Shown: positions 22,726-26,297 of the stretch, one piece after another
How positions within the stretch are numbered: position 1 is the stretch's first letter
Layout of the letters: each line of letters begins with the position of its first letter
Assembly (NCBI GenBank): GCA_001510275.1
Contig: LFEY01000006.1
Span: forward strand, 1 to 32,921
DNA from: Thaumarchaeota archaeon casp-thauma3
GTDB lineage: Archaea > Thermoproteota > Nitrososphaeria > Nitrososphaerales > Nitrosopumilaceae
Direction: 5' to 3'
Length of the DNA: 32,921 bases
The notes under the pieces: model-generated
Told to the model about the DNA's origin: nothing
Seen by the model: only the letters and a program-made list of their open reading frames with translations
Databases searched by the model: none
Translations under genes and position numbers: made by a program

Positions 22726-23919
22726 TCAGAGTGCTTTGAATTCTTCGCTCCATTTATGATAGGCGCGAATCATTTCAGTTGAAACACTTGGCTTTCTTCT
22801 TGTCATAATTTCTTTGAAATCAGCGGTTGTAAGCTCTCTTGGTTGTGCAGGTACTTCTCCATCTACGGGCTCATGATAATCAGGGGCATTGAATATTTCA
22901 TGAACTGTTTGAATTTGTGCTGCTTGACAGATATCTTTGATATCACTTGCACTGTATCCATCAAATAATTTTGCTAAATCACTAGTATTTACTTTGAGAT
23001 CTTTTCTTAGAGGTTCAGTATATTGATCAAATAGGCTTTGTCTAGCTTCTAGAGTTGGTAATGAAACATAGATTCTCTTTTGGAATCGTCTTAGGAAAGG
23101 CCAATCAAGACTCCAAGGTTTGTTTGTTGCTCCAATTACATACAACATCAAATCTTTTCCTTTGCCATTAACACCATCCATCTCAGTTAAGAATTGATTT
23201 TTAGTTCTTACTTCTCCACCAACTTCACTACTTCTAGAACCCAATAAAGAATCAACTTCATCTACAAACAAAATAACAGGTTTACCTTCTTTTTCAGCAT
23301 ATTGTCTTGCCATAGAAAATAATTTTGAAACATTTTTTTCTGCCTCACCTAGCCATTTACTCATCATAGATGATGCATCTACATTGATAAAGTAACCATC
23401 CATTTCATTGGCAGTAGCAGCTGCAAGCATAGTTTTTCCTGTACCAGGAGGACCATAAAGTAACATTCCTTTTGGCCACCCAAGAGGAAACAAATCAGGT
23501 CTTTTTGTAGGATATACAATTGATTCACGCAATGCATTTTTAGCATCATCTAAACCGATTACTTGTTTCCATGTGACATCAGGTTTTTCTTTCATCACTA
23601 ATTCTTCAAAATCATTTTCATTTTCTTGCCTCTTCACAGATGCCTTTTGATCATCTACTGAAGCTTTAGGATCAACTGCAGGCTCGACACCATGAGATTG
23701 TTGTAATGCAGTTATTCGATTATGATAAGAGTTGCATCTATCTTTGTAAATTTGGTTAAGTTTGCTAGTAGGATAAAGTTGTAATAGTTTTACAAGTACG
23801 TCAATTGCTTGCTGATAATGAGTAATTGCCATGCCACGGGCACCTTGAGAGTCAAATTTGATGGCTTCAGAAGCATATTTGCTTGCTGTGTTCTCTAATT
23901 CTTGTGGTGCTAAACTCAT
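22726..23919 (-). CDS. cdvC: CdvC, Vps4-like MIT-AAA ATPase
   Basis: ATPase that remodels or disassembles ESCRT-III-like filaments in the archaeal Cdv cell-division machinery. The 397 residues begin with an MIT domain (about 1-75, three helices, KYASEAIKFDSQG...HYQQAIDVLVKLL). A charged linker follows, then the AAA domain: Walker A GPPGTGKT, pore loop SKWLGEAEKN, Walker B ILFVDEVDSLLGSR, sensor IGATNKP and arginine fingers FLRRF. The C-terminal helix ends WSEEFKAL, as in Vps4/meiotic-clade AAA proteins. It is the third gene of a tight cluster behind an ESCRT-III-like gene and an unknown gene (9-base gap). A different meiotic-clade AAA protein is the only alternative; MIT plus neighbour makes CdvC strong. 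Confidence 0.94.
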   Translation of the reverse strand: MSLAPQELENTASKYASEAIKFDSQGARGMAITHYQQAIDVLVKLLQLYPTSKLNQIYKDRCNSYHNRITALQQSHGVEPAVDPKASVDDQKASVKRQENENDFEELVMKEKPDVTWKQVIGLDDAKNALRESIVYPTKRPDLFPLGWPKGMLLYGPPGTGKTMLAAATANEMDGYFINVDASSMMSKWLGEAEKNVSKLFSMARQYAEKEGKPVILFVDEVDSLLGSRSSEVGGEVRTKNQFLTEMDGVNGKGKDLMLYVIGATNKPWSLDWPFLRRFQKRIYVSLPTLEARQSLFDQYTEPLRKDLKVNTSDLAKLFDGYSASDIKDICQAAQIQTVHEIFNAPDYHEPVDGEVPAQPRELTTADFKEIMTRRKPSVSTEMIRAYHKWSEEFKAL

Positions 23920-23928
23920 CTTAATTAC

Positions 23929-24417
23929 CTACGCAGTCTCTTCTTGAGGATTTTGTTGGTATCTAGTGGTGTTAACCTCTGTAGCAAAAGTGGTTAAATT
24001 AATTGCACTTGTTTCATGCTCATAATAATCAGGCCCATCATGATACCTCTTTTTGAAATCAGATTTATCAGAGATATGAGTATGCATATCTTTTACTTTG
24101 TTAATAGAGTCTTCAGCTGATATTATTAGCTCAGAGATATCGTCATCTAAATTCTCTAGGGAATTAGCAGTATCAGAAATAATAGATACAAAGTGCTTCA
24201 AAATAGAATGAGTCTCTTTTTTGTCAGCGTATTTGCATAGCATAAAATCAGCAATTCCAACAATTTTGTTTAGATCCTGCAGTTCTTCTAAAGTTAGTTT
24301 ATCTATTTTGTCATCTGAAGATTTGAATTCAGATATTTTTTTATCAATTTTTGAAGAGATTGCCCTAATTCGGTCAACATCCTTTGAGAAATTCCGTTTA
24401 GAGTTCAATATTGCCAA
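23929..24417 (-). CDS. Uncharacterised helical protein in cdvC cluster, 162 aa
   Basis: A 162-residue protein between the ESCRT-III-like gene (overlap 13 bases) and cdvC (9-base gap). Residues 1-120 are predicted helical and rich in charge (FSKDVDRIRAISSKIDKKI, ISDTANSLENLDDDISELI, SAEDSINKVKDMHTHI). Residues 121-162 look unstructured (RYHDGPDYYEHE, ending NPQEETA). The only usable start is TTG at 24417, immediately after an in-frame TAA, so translation is probably coupled to the upstream gene. No Snf7 signature, winged helix or proline-rich MIT-binding motif is evident. I do not recognise the family. Position implies a role with CdvC and the ESCRT-III-like protein. Confidence 0.82.
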   Translation of the reverse strand: MAILNSKRNFSKDVDRIRAISSKIDKKISEFKSSDDKIDKLTLEELQDLNKIVGIADFMLCKYADKKETHSILKHFVSIISDTANSLENLDDDISELIISAEDSINKVKDMHTHISDKSDFKKRYHDGPDYYEHETSAINLTTFATEVNTTRYQQNPQEETA

Positions 24418-24977
24418 TTATTGCATGCTTTAGAAAAATCAAGATTAGGATACTGCTTATTAATTTTAGAGTCCACCATCAACTTTACTTCATTAAGCAA
24501 AATGGAAGATTTTTCATTTGACTGACTAAAATCAAATCTTGCCTTTGTAAGTACAGCAGAATCCAGCACTATACTACCCAAATGGACAGATAATTCAGAT
24601 AATTTTTGGCTACAGTTTGGAAGGAAATCAAATAATTGTGCACTAACTGTTCTAACCAGTGGAATAGATGTAGGAAGGATTTCAGGAATACTATTTACAC
24701 CAGATATCTTTCCAATTCTTTTTTTTATTTGAGAAAGAAGATCTAGAGAAAAAGATGTGATTCGTTCTAATTCAATTGCTTTAAGATGAGCCATATCAGT
24801 TTCATCAAAATCAGTGACAAGGAATTTGTTTAGTTTTTTTAGTTCATGTCTTTTCTTCTTGAGAATCTCAATAATTCCATCTAACAGATTTACAGAATAT
24901 TCCAATCTTGGAACAAGTGTAACTGAATTAGATATGGTTGCATTTTCTAATGTCTCAATATTGCATGTAATTAACAT
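24405..24977 (-). CDS. ESCRT-III (Snf7/CdvB)-like protein
   Basis: A 190-residue protein I assign to the archaeal ESCRT-III/CdvB family. A long helical hairpin occupies about residues 25-95 (LLDGIIEILKKKRHELKKL, then ELERITSFSLDLLSQIKKRI). A short proline-containing linker (SIPEILPTSIPLVRTV) follows, then AQLFDFLPNCSQKLSELSVHLGSI and a helix ending VDSKINKQYPNL. The LP...LxELSxxLGSI and the closing (F/Y)PxL are the CdvB-type Snf7 pattern. Unlike canonical CdvB it stops soon after the core, leaving no room for the proline-rich MIT-binding motif or C-terminal winged helix. It heads the three-gene cluster with cdvC and is divergent from the TrmB-family gene. These filament-forming proteins act in membrane scission. 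Confidence 0.8.
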   Translation of the reverse strand: MLITCNIETLENATISNSVTLVPRLEYSVNLLDGIIEILKKKRHELKKLNKFLVTDFDETDMAHLKAIELERITSFSLDLLSQIKKRIGKISGVNSIPEILPTSIPLVRTVSAQLFDFLPNCSQKLSELSVHLGSIVLDSAVLTKARFDFSQSNEKSSILLNEVKLMVDSKINKQYPNLDFSKACNNWQY

Positions 24978-25136: not shown

Positions 25137-26297
25137 ATGGTAAATGAGCATGAGTTAACAGTTAGTTTAGAAGAATTTGGATTAAGTAAATATGAAGCAC
25201 AGGCATATGTATCGCTAATTGCAAAGGGGACAATCTCTGCAAGTGAATTAGCATATTATTCAGAGATTCCACGAACCAAGATTTACCCAACCTTACTAAA
25301 ACTGGAAAAAAAGAAACTGGTAGTAATTTCAAAGAGTAAACCAATAATGAGTACTGCAATTGCACCAGAAGATGCATTTGATGGAATCATTCATGAGCAA
25401 ATCAACAAAGTAAATGCAATGAATACACTAGTCTCAAGTTTGAAAAAAGCAAGTGAAGAGACTAGAAAGTCAAGAGGATCTGAAGAAAAAAGATACTTTC
25501 AACTTGGTGCAAATAATGTATTAACTCAACTTCAAACTATGATTGAAGGCTCTAAATCATCAATTAAAATTATGGCAGACCAATGGGGTCTGGGATTATT
25601 AGCTGAATGTAAAGAACAACTATTATCAGTGGTGCGTAGAAATCTTGATGTCAAAGTGCTTGTATCACCCACACAGATTTGCTCTGAATCATACAGAATA
25701 ATTCCTCAAGGAGTAGAGATTAGAGCATCAGAGATTACTCAAAATTGCTTTATTTTTGATGAAACTGAATTATTAATGATAAACAATGATAATGGAAAAG
25801 GTGCAATTTTTTCATCAACTGAAATTCTTGGAGTTAATCAAGAAAAAGTATTTTCTAATATCTGGAAAAATGCAATAAAAACAAAAGCTCTTGCAGATAT
25901 GACAAAAACAGAAGCACAGGAGATTTACAAAATAATTAAAACAGTTAATGAGACTGGTTTGAGATACATTCTAAATTCTGCAATGATATCAAAAAAACAG
26001 GAATTTGACATGTTCAAATTATTAGAAAAAAATGGAATTTCTTTAAAATCAAAATCACTTGATGAGATAATTGAGATAATAGATGCAATAATGCAAATTA
26101 CATGCTCAGGGCACGTAAATTTTGAGGCAAACACCCAAAACATTACAATTGAATCAAAACTAAACAGCGGACATTCGCTGCCTTGGGTATCTATTTTGGA
26201 TGGATGTCTACAAAAACAAGGCTACAAAACCAGAACAGTTTATCAAAATAATTCAAACAAGGGCGAAAAAGTGCACATCAAGATAAGTAAAAACTAA
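25137..26297 (+). CDS. TrmB-family transcriptional regulator
   Basis: A 386-residue DNA-binding regulator. The N-terminal winged helix-turn-helix (LEEFGLSKYEAQAYVSLIAKG then ELAYYSEIPRTKIYPTLLKLEKKKLV) is the TrmB signature. A middle domain (about 115-250) resembles the phospholipase-D-like ligand or dimerisation region of TrmB proteins (SIKIMADQWGLGLLAECKEQ). A C-terminal alpha/beta domain of about 110 residues (SLDEIIEIIDAIMQITCSG...VHIKISKN) is one I cannot name. TrmB proteins commonly sense sugars, but the ligand here is unknown. The ATG at 25137 has a TATA-like AATTTTA 25-31 bases upstream. It is divergent from the cdv-type cluster, with a long dyad in between, and 26 bases upstream of a RidA-like gene. 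Confidence 0.88.
   Translation: MVNEHELTVSLEEFGLSKYEAQAYVSLIAKGTISASELAYYSEIPRTKIYPTLLKLEKKKLVVISKSKPIMSTAIAPEDAFDGIIHEQINKVNAMNTLVSSLKKASEETRKSRGSEEKRYFQLGANNVLTQLQTMIEGSKSSIKIMADQWGLGLLAECKEQLLSVVRRNLDVKVLVSPTQICSESYRIIPQGVEIRASEITQNCFIFDETELLMINNDNGKGAIFSSTEILGVNQEKVFSNIWKNAIKTKALADMTKTEAQEIYKIIKTVNETGLRYILNSAMISKKQEFDMFKLLEKNGISLKSKSLDEIIEIIDAIMQITCSGHVNFEANTQNITIESKLNSGHSLPWVSILDGCLQKQGYKTRTVYQNNSNKGEKVHIKISKN

Follow-up and report, generated by a model that had tools for sequence, protein, structure and literature searches.

The gene at 23929..24417 (-), here called X, appears from its sequence to encode a derived ESCRT-III protein, and is most likely orthologous, in degenerate form, to the gene for winged-helix CdvB that stands directly before cdvC in deeper families of the order and in much of the phylum (probability about 0.7). 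The link of X to winged-helix CdvB by profile chains, trees and gene order across the phylum is likely to be new. Homology of X to CdvB in general is held with good confidence, and descent from the winged-helix line specifically with a step less. The window, meaning the whole stretch of 32,921 nucleotides that was analysed, comes from an assembly of 31 contigs and 1.22 Mb, and its nearest relatives bear the names Nitrosopumilus and Marine Group I thaumarchaeotes. The family of the host is referred to as f1, and f2, f3, f8 and f15 are other families of its order.

X encodes 162 aa from a TTG start immediately after an in-frame TAA; it overlaps the upstream gene (24405..24977, (-)) by 13 bases and is separated from cdvC (22726..23919, (-)) by 9 bases, exactly as the earlier note on this DNA had described. 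The median dN/dS of its core is 0.17 and homologues are widespread in f1, and X is therefore regarded as a real gene. These homologues were detected in 155 of 200 genomes of the family, including 113 of the 119 near-complete ones (E<=1e-3), and a profile search added three more (L194, L199 and L201). Another TTG, at 24408, shares bases with the upstream TGA stop in the string TTGA (the −4 position). Among 76 relatives of X a start codon at −4 is by far the commonest arrangement, and the −4 TTG is the sole early start codon in L118-L121, four of its closest relatives. Since other relatives begin with ATG, at −13 or at +1/+2, an overlap of 13 bases is not a constant feature, and the distance between X and cdvC ranges within f1 from a small overlap to ~45 bases, with intergenic gaps in other families. 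The overlap and gap were thus read correctly for this genome, but the idea that they fix X in place does not extend to its relatives. From these comparisons, coupling of X to the upstream gene is a common arrangement of which the exact geometry is not fixed. Strict dependence of X on that gene for translation, also proposed earlier, is not general, because X is kept in five loci (L032, L036, L037, L047 and L050) where no ESCRT-III-like gene was detected upstream.

The upstream gene encodes a 190 aa derived ESCRT-III of CdvB1/B2 type without the MIM2 core. It matches NCBIfam CdvB1/B2 (E 1.5e-6), the PDB entry for CdvB2 (9s97, E 9.5e-19) and, by hhalign, a 215-aa CdvB (E 1.2e-20), and on these sequence matches it is a separate derived ESCRT-III. 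Domain scans identified cdvC as a Vps4-type AAA ATPase with MIT and Vps4_C domains, and a TrmB-family regulator gene divergent from the operon (25137..26297, (+)). An ESCRT-III-like gene lies directly 5' of X in all 76 named loci, and cdvC directly 3' in all 72 that reach that far, so orthologues commonly found far from cdvC, which the earlier note had named as evidence against a Cdv role, were not encountered. Genus g5, which has small genomes, and part of genus g19 lack both X and the 190-aa gene, leaving cdvC on its own. Three copies of canonical CdvB are located elsewhere in the genome of X. Rfam and tRNA scans of the window gave no matches.

Direct searches of Pfam, NCBIfam and the PDB with X produced no meaningful match, and the earlier statement that it has no recognisable domain is correct for such scans. 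It does not survive the remote-homology search that had been suggested alongside it, as a chain of profiles reaches CdvB/ESCRT-III through intermediates. Iterated HMM searches of the collected ORFs drifted until the X and ESCRT-III profiles merged, and were discarded; separate groups and hhalign with controls were therefore used. X of f1 aligned with X of f8 (E 1.3e-9, 109 columns), and the latter with X of f3 (E 1.1e-18), with winged-helix CdvB (E 1.2e-10, 133 columns) and with the 215-aa CdvB of the next slot (E 3.9e-4). Reversed and block-shuffled profile controls were null for the f1-f8 link and for that between f8 and winged-helix CdvB. Compared directly, X of f1 and winged-helix CdvB gave E 0.008, with the best shuffle at least as good, so this link is transitive. 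By profile homology X therefore falls within the ESCRT-III/CdvB superfamily, through intermediates only.

Other families of the order have proteins of 135 to 329 residues in the slot before cdvC. Those of deep families measure 245-329 aa and contain an ESCRT-III core (matches to NCBIfam CdvB and CdvB1/B2), with E 1e-20 to NCBIfam CdvB, one match spanning 18-259 of 260, and PDB matches to CdvB2 (9s97, E 1e-23) and CdvB (9s9j, E 7e-22). Most of them end in a C-terminal winged helix related to the winged helices of CdvB elsewhere in the phylum (E 3e-13; reversed control null). The slot proteins of f15, f3, f2, f8 and f1 are shorter and have no winged helix. Thaumarchaeal CdvBs have been stated to be without a winged helix (PMC10936438, PMC5797428); judged from the sequences this seems not to hold for the uncultured deep families, because they carry winged-helix CdvB, with the qualification that their thaumarchaeal label rests on a shared GTDB order. 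Loci of this order with winged-helix CdvB directly before cdvC are L096, L097, L099, L105-L110, L114 and L115.

Crenarchaeal CdvB (PDB 9s9j) consists of an ESCRT-III core, MIM2 and a winged helix. X is likewise encoded directly before cdvC and shares a homologous helical core through the intermediates, but its predicted alpha-helical hairpin is shorter, no winged helix was found in it, and a regular expression for the MIM2 core (Frohn 2022) matched none of 25 X sequences, against 17 of 18 for the 215-aa CdvB. Structure prediction, which had also been suggested, gave a helical core at low confidence: AF2, run with 42 sequences, placed helices at residues 10-29, 43-62 and 67-118 (mean pLDDT 63.8, pTM 0.23), and Foldseek with this low-confidence model returned no match. 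The conserved helical core, residues 10-118 (24064..24390, (-)), aligns to the ESCRT-III core of CdvB, and the tail, residues 119-162 (23932..24063, (-)), is predicted to be disordered from about residue 120. The X of L045 (2782-5427, (-)) has 881 residues, with a very long series of PPPAAEA heptapeptide repeats after its core, and it sits between an ESCRT-III-like gene and cdvC.

A thaumarchaeal coiled-coil Cdv component encoded upstream of cdvC has already been listed as arCOG08707, with no similarity to known proteins and a helical hairpin resembling ESCRT-III and CdvA (Makarova et al. 2024, PMC10936438). X fits that description in position, lineage, helical character and lack of direct matches, and is almost certainly of the same family, matched by position and description. 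The proposal of X as a new Cdv component therefore stands as regards its location beside cdvC, and only in part as regards novelty. What differs is that arCOG08707 was described without known relatives, whereas X is tied here to winged-helix CdvB through profiles and gene order. A full-text search of a single literature collection found no other papers naming arCOG08707. The thaumarchaeal ESCRT-III paralogues studied to date are of CdvB1/CdvB2 type (PDB 9s97), in N. maritimus Nmar_0816, Nmar_0029 and Nmar_0061; X belongs to the same superfamily but is a separate and much more derived line. In N. maritimus, bands of CdvA and CdvC are seen at mid-cell and the CdvB paralogues appear diffuse (PMC8970359, PMC5840170).

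In the best trees X (f3, f8 and f1) groups with winged-helix CdvB, with SH-aLRT support of 97 without f1 and 99.9 with it, and the 190-aa gene groups with the other cdvB line. Joining X to that other ESCRT-III line was not rejected by AU tests, either with the X of f1 (p 0.35) or with those of f3 and f8 only (p 0.32). Because these tests are indecisive and the branches are long, the orthology of X rests on the tree together with profile strength and position. The order cdvB - (cdvA) - cdvB(wH) - cdvC recurs across the phylum, with X fitting the winged-helix slot, and deeper families of its own order retain cdvB - cdvB(winged helix) - cdvC.

Three other origins were weighed against descent from winged-helix CdvB. 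X could be a thaumarchaeal coiled-coil protein of independent origin that was recruited into the Cdv locus and shares no descent with CdvB, as the lack of direct Pfam, NCBIfam or PDB matches and the failure of Makarova et al. (2024, PMC10936438) to find similar proteins would allow; this is unlikely given the stepwise profile links with null controls, the f8, f3 and f2 intermediates in the same slot and a gene order continuous with that of winged-helix CdvB. Rather less likely again is that X arose within the other ESCRT-III lineage, for instance if the 190-aa gene or the 215-aa ancestor of that gene had been duplicated in tandem. Both X and its 190-aa neighbour evolve fast, and the AU results leave room for such a grouping, but X of f1 compared with the 190-aa protein gives only E 0.68, and the X of f8 lies much nearer to winged-helix CdvB. 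In most families of the order both cdvB slots are occupied, and therefore no loss and duplication need be supposed. An origin from CdvA or an ESCRT-I-like hairpin is highly improbable: hhalign of X against CdvA gives E 0.17 for f1 and f8 alike and several genomes of both families carry cdvA elsewhere, although cdvA does lie between both cdvB genes in some members of the phylum and helical hairpins are common to these proteins (Makarova 2024, PMC10936438). A profile comparison of X with MIT domains, as possible relatives, was null.

The tail of X carries what looks like a conserved protein motif, NLTN..T.INT..Y, at residues 137-157, in which N140, L141, T142 and Y153 are kept in 69 to 73 of 73 orthologues. 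A conserved C-terminal motif is what the earlier note had suggested looking for, and it is present, but it reflects a DNA element of 64 nt upstream of cdvC (23947..24010, (-)) and would mislead. The dN/dS of residues 137-157 is 0.72, and where two sequences share an amino acid they also share the codon in 93% of cases in the motif, against 56% in the core of X (random 47-49%). The element, recognised from codon identity, alignment and a genome scan, reads GTnCAAwTAATTT, ~20 nt, ATTTACAC, ~5 nt, TAATnCnAA. An alignment of 32 diverse sequences from f1, f2, f3 and f8 needs no gaps inside the element, which keeps a nearly constant distance to the cdvC start codon; in most of these sequences its second block starts 50-60 nt 5' of that codon. 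The element occurs where X stops short of it (L047, L050, f8 and f3) and in loci that lack X (L195-L197, L202-L207 and L113), and was not found in the winged-helix CdvB families tested. The genome of X contains a single strong match to it (E 9.8e-14; the next is 0.09), and clear genomes elsewhere have one strong match each, with the reservation that some scanned loci had contributed to the element model and their matches are not independent. L113, L197, L202, L205, L206 and L207 were excluded from the model, and all still matched. A genome-wide regulon motif was rejected, since clear cases have one strong match per genome and other hits are weak.

From these comparisons the tail motif is not protein-driven and selection there acts on the DNA, because the last ~40 residues of X overlie a conserved, probable control element of cdvC. 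The element is very probably a real cis-element of cdvC, and probably a cdvC-specific internal promoter or operator; in f1 the extension of the X frame is read as overprinting it. That the tail is instead a protein motif, for instance one binding the MIT domain of CdvC, is quite improbable. The near-invariant residues would agree with it, but codon choice is constrained, the DNA is conserved even where no X frame covers it, and the tail is predicted to be disordered both alone and in a model joined to the MIT domain. In that joint model, for which the single TAG between the genes was read as Q and to which limits of linker and confidence apply, the tail stays disordered, giving no support to MIT binding. 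No RNA structure was found in the element, and a stem built from the inverted repeat that links blocks one and two was rejected because shuffles score equally well.

Many orthologues of X end in an in-frame 'QVI', which is due to the probable ribosome-binding site of cdvC (AGGTAATT, 23923..23930, (-), from sequence and comparison); as this is the site read in frame, 'QVI' was rejected as a C-terminal protein motif. X and cdvC are in the same reading frame in the window, separated by a single TAG and three codons (23920-23931). Their spacing is attributed to the ribosome-binding site and is not kept as a fusion.

In Sulfolobales, cell-division genes are under aCcr1-type control. Both the aCcr1-type site and the element are DNA sites before a cdv gene, but the element is longer and specific to cdvC. 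The TrmB-family gene is a candidate regulator of the cdvC locus. A gene of this family is also divergent from the cdvC operon at L032, L037, L102, L104 and L113, and directly adjoins cdvC even at loci without X and the ESCRT-III gene.

X, the 190-aa ESCRT-III and cdvC would probably be co-transcribed and translationally coupled. In the ammonia-oxidiser lineages the second cdvB probably lost its winged helix and, in f1, shrank to ~120 residues of core; with the winged helix lost and no MIM2 core, X would be left as a short alpha-helical core. Most likely X would act as a small accessory subunit of ESCRT-III type, joining or capping CdvB-type polymers and working on or within those that the three canonical CdvBs from elsewhere in the genome form, and, although it lacks the MIM2 core, might be turned over by CdvC.

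The data suggest that the ancestor of the order had a winged-helix CdvB, still retained in uncultured families, which decayed in place to X in the ammonia oxidisers. It is rather more probable than otherwise that winged-helix CdvB decayed in ammonia oxidisers and near relatives and that the cdvC-specific element of ~64 nt appears in the same lineages, overprinted in f1; if true, this would amount to a rewiring of the Cdv system in which the CdvC motor is under control of its own. The winged helix of CdvB binds CdvA in Crenarchaea, and decay of this domain would give an evolutionary explanation for the missing CdvA-CdvB link, with X as the subunit to localise. The element gives an entry point for studying how the cell cycle controls division in these abundant archaea, and it cautions that apparent conserved C-terminal 'motifs' may be regulatory DNA.

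Several further features of Cdv genes were observed. At L055 (6500-7714) cdvC is split by an in-frame TAA into 135 and 255 aa, possibly through an assembly error. At L112:566-1759 (G008) an additional cdvC-like gene, with no cdvB next to it, lies beside two genes that by eye are thymidylate kinase-like. CdvA proteins of this order, such as those in L263, L264, L265, L267-L270, L275 and L276, often have at their C-termini a short conserved motif around WLxR/WLxQ, for example NDWLARMEAQ, which is possibly a binding peptide.
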